A stretch of 6,460 bases of DNA from NCBI GenBank assembly GCA_016934645.1, contig JAFGSL010000402.1, positions 1-6,460 of the forward strand, given 5' to 3'. This document shows positions 3,656 through 5,272 of the stretch, one piece after another; position 1 is the stretch's first letter, and the number at the start of each line of letters is the position of its first letter. Origin of the DNA: Anaerolineae bacterium. GTDB lineage: Bacteria; Chloroflexota; Anaerolineae; B4-G1; SLSP01. A program made the translations under genes and the position numbers. A model generated the notes under the pieces. The model had not been told where the DNA came from, searched no databases, and saw only the letters and a program-made list of their open reading frames with translations.

Positions 3656-4828
3656 TTATCCAAACGTTTCTCGCATCTTCTCACAATAATACTGTACGTT
3701 CTCCCATTTCGCATCCGGCGCGATGCGGTGATCGGGACAGGGGATATAGCCGCCGAGGTCGACCAGCGGCTTGAGGCGCTTGATTTCGGCGTCTACGGCG
3801 GCGTAGTCGCGGCTGAAGACGACCTTGTCCATCCCACCGACGCCGCGCAGATCACGCCCGTACTGTGCGCGCCATGGTGCAAGGCTTGCGCGCCACGTCC
3901 CAACCTCGATGGGGAACATCGTGTTGACGCCGTTCTCCAACCATACCGGCACGAGCTTGGTCACGTCGCCATCGCTGTCGAGGGAGACGATGTCGATGCC
4001 GTAACGGTTGACCAACTCGGTGAGGCGTTTGTAATGGTGCCCAGCCATCCGGCGGAAGGTGCGGGGATTGATGAGCGGTCCGCTCTTGAAGGAGATGTCT
4101 TCCCAGAAGTGGGCGAAATCGAAGGGAGCCGGGCTGTTGTCGGGACACACCATCTTCAGCGTCGTTTGAGTCGTCTGGTAGCACAACTCGGCAGTGACAT
4201 CCACAATTTCTTGCAACAGGTCGGGATCATCCGCCAACATATACGACAGACCTACAATGCCGATCCAATCGCGAATGACGCCGAAAAGACTGCCGATGTG
4301 GATGCCGTAGGGATTTGTCCACGCGCCGTGCTGCAGATAATTCAAGCCACCCCAGTCGAAGCGCACCATTTGCCCATCGCAGTTGACCCAGGCATGTGTG
4401 ACGCGCTCATCGCTGTATTGTAGCCTGGGCAAATAGTGTTCTTCCCACGAAGCACGATCCTTGAGCAGATGCTCGATCTCCTGGGGTATCGAAACGGCGT
4501 CATCTTTTTGCAGGATGATAACACCTTCGTCGTTTTGGATGTGCCGTCCTCCGTCAGGCAACTCGCGAATCACCTTTGTCTCGAACGCGGGTCGCAGTCG
4601 TGTGGCAGGGCCATAGCACGTACTCCAGTTGAAGTCAAAGCCGAGCTTGGCAGCGATGACCGCGTCCGTGGGGTTGCCGTCACCCCATGCCTGCGCCTCT
4701 TCGACAGTGATATGCCCTTCTGTTGCCCATTTGTCCAATGTCTCACGCCAGTAACCGAAGTGCACGAGGGGCATACGGTCGTAATCCTGGTAGTGCAAGA
4801 TTGCATAGACGCGTTCACGGTTGTTCAT
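3656..4828 (-). CDS. Uroporphyrinogen decarboxylase-superfamily protein (URO-D-like, not the haem enzyme)
   Basis: A 390-residue protein beginning MNNRERVYAILHYQDYDRMP, the standard opening of URO-D-like and corrinoid-methyltransferase-like proteins. The rest of the barrel is consistent with the family: GSLFGVIRDWIG (179-190), WEDISFKSGPLINP (242-255), DSDGD (284-288), GGMDK (331-335), and the terminal GGYIPCPDH (359-367) followed by a WENVQYYCEKM helix. The RQAGR substrate-binding and catalytic motif of HemE is absent; the corresponding region reads LVHFGYWRE. A role in haem synthesis is therefore unlikely. C364 and H367 near the C terminus could bind metal, as in zinc-dependent methyltransferases of the superfamily, but no corrinoid protein is encoded in the window. 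The start has GAGGA about 9 nt upstream and overlaps, as ATGA, the ancestral stop of the decayed toxin frame. It is followed 4 nt later by the PHP gene, so the two are probably made together. Confidence 0.87.
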   Translation of the reverse strand: MNNRERVYAILHYQDYDRMPLVHFGYWRETLDKWATEGHITVEEAQAWGDGNPTDAVIAAKLGFDFNWSTCYGPATRLRPAFETKVIRELPDGGRHIQNDEGVIILQKDDAVSIPQEIEHLLKDRASWEEHYLPRLQYSDERVTHAWVNCDGQMVRFDWGGLNYLQHGAWTNPYGIHIGSLFGVIRDWIGIVGLSYMLADDPDLLQEIVDVTAELCYQTTQTTLKMVCPDNSPAPFDFAHFWEDISFKSGPLINPRTFRRMAGHHYKRLTELVNRYGIDIVSLDSDGDVTKLVPVWLENGVNTMFPIEVGTWRASLAPWRAQYGRDLRGVGGMDKVVFSRDYAAVDAEIKRLKPLVDLGGYIPCPDHRIAPDAKWENVQYYCEKMRETFG

Positions 4829-5142
4829 ACAATAGGTTCCTCTTTCAACTTTTCCAGTTCATCTCTTAACTAATTTTGCCAGCGCGGACTGATACGTATG
4901 CCTTCTTCCAACATCTTGGAAAGTGAAGTTAATGCTTCTTGCTTGGTCATCAAATCGGCAATCACCGCCGCCAGCAAAATGCCCAGTGTTCCCTTGAGTG
5001 GAAACTTCAAGACTTTTGCTATGCGCCGCCCTAACCGTTCATCCATTAGCACCCAATCTGGTGTTAATTGCTGGGCCAATAACAGGACTTCCATTTCGCC
5101 TGGGTCCAAGCCTAATAAGAGTGGTTCCAGTGTTGTCTGTGA
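4825..5142 (-). pseudogene. C-terminal remnant of a DUF3368 (PIN-like) type II toxin
   Basis: The frame carrying TTLEPLLLGLDPGEMEVLLL and, further on, WVLMDERLGRRIAKVL and KGTLGILLAAV matches the second half of DUF3368 proteins, PIN-fold RNases that usually pair with UPF0175 antitoxins. Acidic residues of the active site survive in DPGE and MDE. The first half, including the N-terminal acidic residue of the VVSDTSPL-type motif, is missing, and no start codon with a ribosome site serves this frame; the best is a TTG at 5109. A TAG at 4870-4872 interrupts the frame after RISPRWQN. Past it the frame continues LRDELEKLKEEPIV to a TGA at 4825-4827. Family members commonly have an aromatic residue followed by an ELEKL-like tail here, so TAG probably replaced TGG (Trp). 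The toxin should be inactive. Family assignment is from memory of the family, not a search. Confidence 0.75.
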
Positions 5143-5143
5143 A

Positions 5144-5272
5144 GCCTGAGGAGATTTTCCCTTGTGTGTACAAGTGCGCTAACGTGTAAAACATGACCTG
5201 TTGCGTGAATTGCTCCGTATCTTGTCGTGTAGCCACCAACAAGGCATCTGGAAAGGTTACATTTACACTCAT
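5144..5272 (-). pseudogene. N-terminal remnant of a UPF0175-family antitoxin
   Basis: From ATG 5272, with a strong AGAAAGGAG site 4 nt upstream, the first 43 codons read like UPF0175 antitoxins: a short beta segment SVNVTFPDALL, a helix, then LAHLYTQGKISSG. In intact members the last motif continues into a helix-turn-helix-like region and a C-terminal part, for about 80-90 residues in all. Here similarity stops at GKISSG. The open frame continues to a stop at 5039-5041 (77 codons), but the last 34 residues are the toxin sequence read in the wrong frame. The remnant starts 30 nt after the dehydrogenase stop. Its start signals look intact, so a short chimeric peptide may still be made. Confidence 0.75.

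Follow-up and report, generated by a model that had tools for sequence, protein, structure and literature searches.

A toxin–antitoxin pair truncated across its gene boundary, and probably dead, in an Anaerolineae bacterium

In an Anaerolineae genome, the beginning of an antitoxin gene runs within a few bases into the end of a toxin gene read in another frame, which raises the question of whether this chimera is a gene in use or what is left of an addiction module, and of how its missing parts were lost. The locus lies in a window of 6,460 nucleotides, the whole stretch of DNA analysed here, and reads on the minus strand as dehydrogenase, antitoxin 5′ piece, toxin C-terminal piece and URO-D-like gene. 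We regard it as highly probable that the locus is a dead type II toxin–antitoxin module, in which a pair inserted between the two flanking genes and a subsequent loss of ~337 bp destroyed both members, leaving no working product. Our search of the literature on the decay of such modules and on Thermoflexus toxin–antitoxin systems, with most subscription literature outside its reach, found no description of this locus.

Two gene pieces and their intact counterpart

Upstream of the slot occupied by the two pieces lies a Zn-dependent dehydrogenase of 355 aa (5303–6370, minus strand; Pfam ADH_N and ADH_zinc_N), and downstream a URO-D-like protein of 390 aa (3656–4828, minus strand), whose match to Pfam URO-D is weak (20.3 bits, under the cut-off of 23.9). 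Both are syntenic with locus L001 of a Thermoflexus sp. MAG (DYKY01000042.1), at 90.7% amino-acid identity for the dehydrogenase and 92% for the URO-D-like protein; this synteny, together with 87.7% identity between the URO-D-like genes at the nucleotide level, suggests that the window comes from a relative of Thermoflexus. L001, the sole relative confirmed among genome contigs as an intact counterpart, carries a complete pair between the same two genes: an antitoxin of 92 aa (L001:4522–4800) that overlaps the toxin gene by 4 bp, and a toxin of 169 aa (L001:4797–5306) that overlaps the next gene by 4 bp, both proteins scoring above the Pfam cut-offs (66.6 and 29.5 bits, respectively). Elsewhere in the window, a 478-aa protein (2278–3714) had no Pfam match at E 0.001 and has counterparts 3′ of the slot in two related loci, L024 and L025.

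The antitoxin piece comprises the first 44 codons of a UPF0175 protein (5141–5272, minus strand), preceded by its ribosome-binding region (5273–5286, minus strand), which forms the left end of a segment nearly identical to L001 (window 5286–5141, bases 415–560 of a minus-strand query spanning 4600–5700; 97% match). Across the first 43 codons, 43/43 residues and 126/129 nucleotides (97.7%) agree with L001. The 43-aa piece matched Pfam UPF0175 (PF03683/COG2886) over profile positions 1–37 of 75 at 25.2 bits (E 1.4e-5), under the gathering score of 27.9, and is a clear relative, though half a protein only. After codon 44 the frame departs from the family, and the C-terminal 48 codons, with the helix–turn–helix (HTH) motif and the C-terminal tail, are absent. 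In a model of the L001 antitoxin (mean pLDDT 70.8, built on 5 sequences), helices 42–49 and 53–62 look HTH-like and would be missing from the window copy; passages of PMC2701414 describe COG2886 as an HTH family paired with PIN genes. A protein search with the antitoxin frame matched 4/4 candidates, comparison with solved structures by sequence gave no match, and no further DNA copy of the antitoxin segment was found among the 396 genomes of the class except in G001.

The toxin piece, in the +1 frame relative to the antitoxin (4873–5142, minus strand), is the C-terminal part of a DUF3368 PIN-type toxin whose first 64–66 codons are gone. Its frame matched Pfam DUF3368 (PF11848/COG2405) at 20.4 bits (E 4.8e-4), under the gathering score of 27.3; that both pieces score below their cut-offs may be because they are half-proteins. 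Homology to the L001 toxin starts at toxin codon 65–67, and the 75% amino-acid identity places descent from a DUF3368 toxin beyond doubt. HMMs built in this analysis scored 81.9 bits for the antitoxin piece and 144.8 bits for the toxin piece, whereas the highest scores among 500 resamplings of the region under a first-order Markov model were 7.5 and 6.9, respectively; an NCBIfam scan of the pieces gave no match. Further downstream, a TAG nonsense codon (4870–4872, minus strand) replaces a Trp codon (TGG in L001) and truncates the toxin tail, in a column (4872–4870) that holds Trp in 7/7 aligned relatives, including the protein P0002 discussed below. The leftover tail 3′ of it, LRDELEKLKEEPIV (4825–4869, minus strand), overlaps the URO-D-like gene at an ATGA, and an AGAGG motif at 4843–4839, upstream of the URO-D-like ATG, may serve as the ribosome-binding site of that gene. 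The toxin 3′ end has probably been kept because it carries this ribosome-binding region.

What the toxin has lost bears on its fold. When 49 full-length toxins, hand-picked from the matches, were aligned, N6, T8 and E38 proved invariant and belong to the part missing from the window, with E80 and D98 in the part that it keeps; the PIN fold of the window piece is incomplete and lacks conserved residues. AlphaFold modelling of the L001 toxin (mean pLDDT 91.5) gave a structure with the PIN domain 1o4w as its best fold match (E 2.2e-4) and only PDB match at E <0.001; VapC4 (5h4g) matched at E 0.015, and unrelated folds such as glycosyltransferases and adenylyltransferases appeared at lower ranks. 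A comparison of the toxin profile with solved structures returned only PPR repeat proteins, at positions 15–49, which we rejected as spurious, since none of the stretches passed individually and the fold search pointed to PIN domains. The protein search with the toxin piece yielded 83 matches, with lengths up to ~163 aa possible, and the profile search, which scored the 7,998 candidates with the most shared words, yielded 330 matches, of which 120 were listed. A protein-level search of viral contigs gave five stretches fitting a pattern and no relatives. Shorter DUF3368 proteins also occur: eight proteins of 123 aa (P0108, P0109, P0111, P0112, P0115, P0116, P0117 and P0135) lack the toxin N terminus and start with VAT-GEPGADAI or similar, and P0025, P0039, P0059, P0062, P0063 and P0070 start at or just before a PLLLGLD motif, near the position at which the window piece begins.

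From the antitoxin ATG to the URO-D-like ATG, the window measures 444 bp versus 781 bp in L001, a difference of 337 bp. A breakpoint scan against L001 confined the junction to 10 bases (5135–5144, minus strand), with about L001:4654–4990 (337 bp) absent, corresponding to antitoxin codons 45–92 and about 64–66 toxin codons. Adjacent complete genes, by which a type II toxin–antitoxin module is recognized, are present in L001, and in the window both are truncated. A first-pass annotation made from the letters alone had the two families, their coordinates and the +1 frame right, and alignment to an intact locus of a relative, a check that it had proposed, bore out its sharp junction. It ended the antitoxin at GKISSG (43 codons), whereas homology to L001 extends one codon further, to codon 44 (F). 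Its proposal of one internal deletion of a few hundred bases agrees with the 337 bp lost across the gene boundary, but the uneven divergence across the junction leaves a single simple event unsettled, and the short direct repeats that it suggested seeking at the ends did not appear: with L001 as proxy, the ends share only scattered bases (CT-C), and no repeat of useful length was found.

Uneven divergence across the junction

Identity to L001 is 97.7% in the antitoxin piece, 87–88% in the flanking genes and 72% in the toxin piece. The same contrast holds at third codon positions, with 40/43 identical for the antitoxin piece, 51/102 for the toxin piece and 542/745 for the flanks (Fisher, antitoxin versus toxin, p 2e-7; antitoxin versus flanks, 0.002; toxin versus flanks, 9e-6), and the high-similarity stretch extends from immediately upstream of the ribosome-binding site to the junction. 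These data suggest either that the antitoxin piece was recently exchanged or that the toxin allele is of different origin. One deletion is the simplest reading and is not proven; a plain deletion does not predict uneven identity across the junction, and, as the identity shift coincides with the junction, a single recombination event may have produced the two together.

The junction may therefore be a recombination edge, at which a short L001-like segment (ribosome-binding site and 5′ part of the antitoxin, ~145 bp) was brought in and fused by illegitimate joining to a divergent toxin allele already present, the middle being lost in the same event; we take such joining to be homology-facilitated illegitimate recombination. 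We hold this account to be possible though doubtful. Beyond the third-position contrast and the two borders of the high-similarity stretch, it draws on other antitoxin pairs, which share 13–23 of 43 third positions and so speak against general DNA-level constraint, but that control is weak for close relatives, the pairs being much more distant (44–72% amino-acid identity over 43 codons). DNA-level constraint on the antitoxin 5′ end, tried as a cause of the high identity, was not seen in L031–L034, all of which are distant pairs. Against a recombination edge, the antitoxin piece exceeds the flanks by little, since the most similar 43-codon window of the flanks has 39/43 third positions identical to L001, and the antitoxin body is unusually conserved at the protein level among close relatives (40–42 of 43 in P0084–P0086).

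Mosaic identity in a record of 6,460 bp would also fit an assembly that merged two strains of a metagenome, the metagenome origin itself being a guess. We consider such an artefact highly improbable: the few scattered bases common to both sides, again with L001 as proxy, offer little for a k-mer assembler to bridge, and the truncation may occur a second time in P0002.

How common the chimera is and whether it is maintained

Relatives sharing the chimera, which the first-pass annotation would have read, if under purifying selection, as the mark of a real gene, were sought among the 30 related loci that gave the best toxin C-terminal matches in the 396 genomes of the class, L001 included (L061 and L062 score equally, and selection by the toxin C terminus under-counts lost toxins). 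HMMs applied to stop-to-stop frames matched both genes in 30/30 loci and found a boundary-crossing chimera in 0/30, which argues against a commonly maintained form. Breaks confined to the toxin occurred in three loci (L053, L065 and L071) and a break confined to the antitoxin in one (L069); some of these may be sequencing errors.

The toxin C-terminal part could nevertheless be an older truncation that relatives share and that still yields a product, such as a dominant-negative or regulatory fragment. The nearest toxin, P0002, is identical to the called piece of the window at 67/74 residues and sister to it in the toxin tree (support 96/99); its 89-aa call starts at the same internal Met, lacks the window's stop and may share the window's truncation, in which case it could represent an older, maintained truncation. 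Codon-position identities between the toxin piece and L001 (75/90/50% over 103 codons) also keep the structure of a coding sequence, which fits a young loss and would also fit a selected remnant. Set against this are the nonsense codon of the window copy and its longer tip branch (0.073 versus 0 for P0002), together with the absence of the form from the 30 loci. Moreover, every one of the 176 fetched proteins starts with M (166) or V (10); the collection seemingly holds start-codon calls only, and P0002 may therefore derive from a complete toxin gene interrupted where its contig stops. We judge an expressed fragment improbable, and the window module is very probably dead.

A dead module, in our preferred account, would have arisen when a UPF0175/COG2886 HTH antitoxin and DUF3368/COG2405 PIN toxin pair inserted between the dehydrogenase and URO-D-like genes in a Thermoflexus-related lineage. 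The ~337-bp loss across the antitoxin/toxin boundary would then have left an antitoxin without its HTH helices and C-terminal tail and a toxin without its start and the N-terminal part of the PIN fold, including N6, T8 and E38, with the nonsense change in the toxin tail arising before or after that loss.

The first-pass annotation had seen in the simultaneous loss of both halves a way for an addiction module to die safely. Passages of two reviews, PMC3874152 and PMC2701414, point the other way, describing the disappearance of the labile antidote while the stable toxin persists as the trigger of post-segregational killing, so that toxin already made would be left without fresh antitoxin; on these passages we rejected the idea. 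To survive a joint loss, a cell would need the toxin to be weak or inactive beforehand, expression to be low or a different antitoxin to give protection; G001 has a second UPF0175 match, 29% identical, and three further weaker toxin matches.

The slot and its modules in related genomes

The pairing of COG2886 with PIN genes noted in PMC2701414 also appears, in passages of PMC6929052, as COG2886 with COG2405/DUF3368 in Geobacillus (the VapBC-COG2886-PIN composite) and, in a table of PMC4963859, as an HTH/PIN pair in Synechocystis. The composite comprises the same two families with the antitoxin first, as in the intact L001 relative, in which the genes overlap by 4 bp; the window copy differs from it in lacking the antitoxin C-terminal 48 codons and about 65 toxin N-terminal codons, and is probably non-functional. 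Both intact L001 proteins also match PADLOC models of a candidate defence system, PDC-S70, the toxin at 133.3 bits and the antitoxin at 27.9 bits, a comparison that concerns the L001 pair, the window pieces being remnants.

The window stretch matched 12 of the 24 genomes in the family, and we compared the slot in G001 and in six others with both flanks close; G012, G014, G020, G021 and G022 fell outside this comparison. In G002, G018 and G019 the slot is empty, the flanking genes lying a few bases apart or overlapping, and because G018 and G019 are the two most distant genomes, we take module insertion to be derived. In a tree built from both flanking proteins, the window and G001 were sisters (94/96, not starred), and most other forks stayed open. 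Between the same flanking genes, G003 and G015 carry a DNA methylase gene and an NgoMIV-type nuclease (L024:2378–4656 and L026:2409–4690; the G015 methylase was named from its open reading frame only), a type II restriction–modification system that is also an addiction-type module but is made of unrelated genes. In L026, an extra short-chain dehydrogenase gene (4808–5515) lies between this pair and the URO-D-like gene.

The restriction–modification system has decayed in G004 (L025:2252–3740), where the antidote, the methylase, is open to 466 aa and the toxin equivalent, the nuclease, is reduced to its last codons, leaving L025 a net 811 bp shorter than L024 of G003 across the methylase/nuclease boundary. 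An AACAAC-like motif occurs near both ends in L024. For a restriction–modification system, G004 shows a safe route, in which the toxin is disabled first. As a speculative extension, unlikely as it stands, the dehydrogenase/URO-D-like boundary could be a landing slot at which different addiction modules, toxin–antitoxin or restriction–modification, succeed each other and decay through losses across their gene boundaries that leave the downstream ribosome-binding site intact, the loss in the window having been accompanied by recombination of two module alleles. Taken alone, the window feature is an ordinary pseudogene, although the slot in which it lies is of interest. Together with relatives that have a whole pair, nothing or another type of module at the same position, it forms part of a small natural series for asking in which order dying modules lose their parts.
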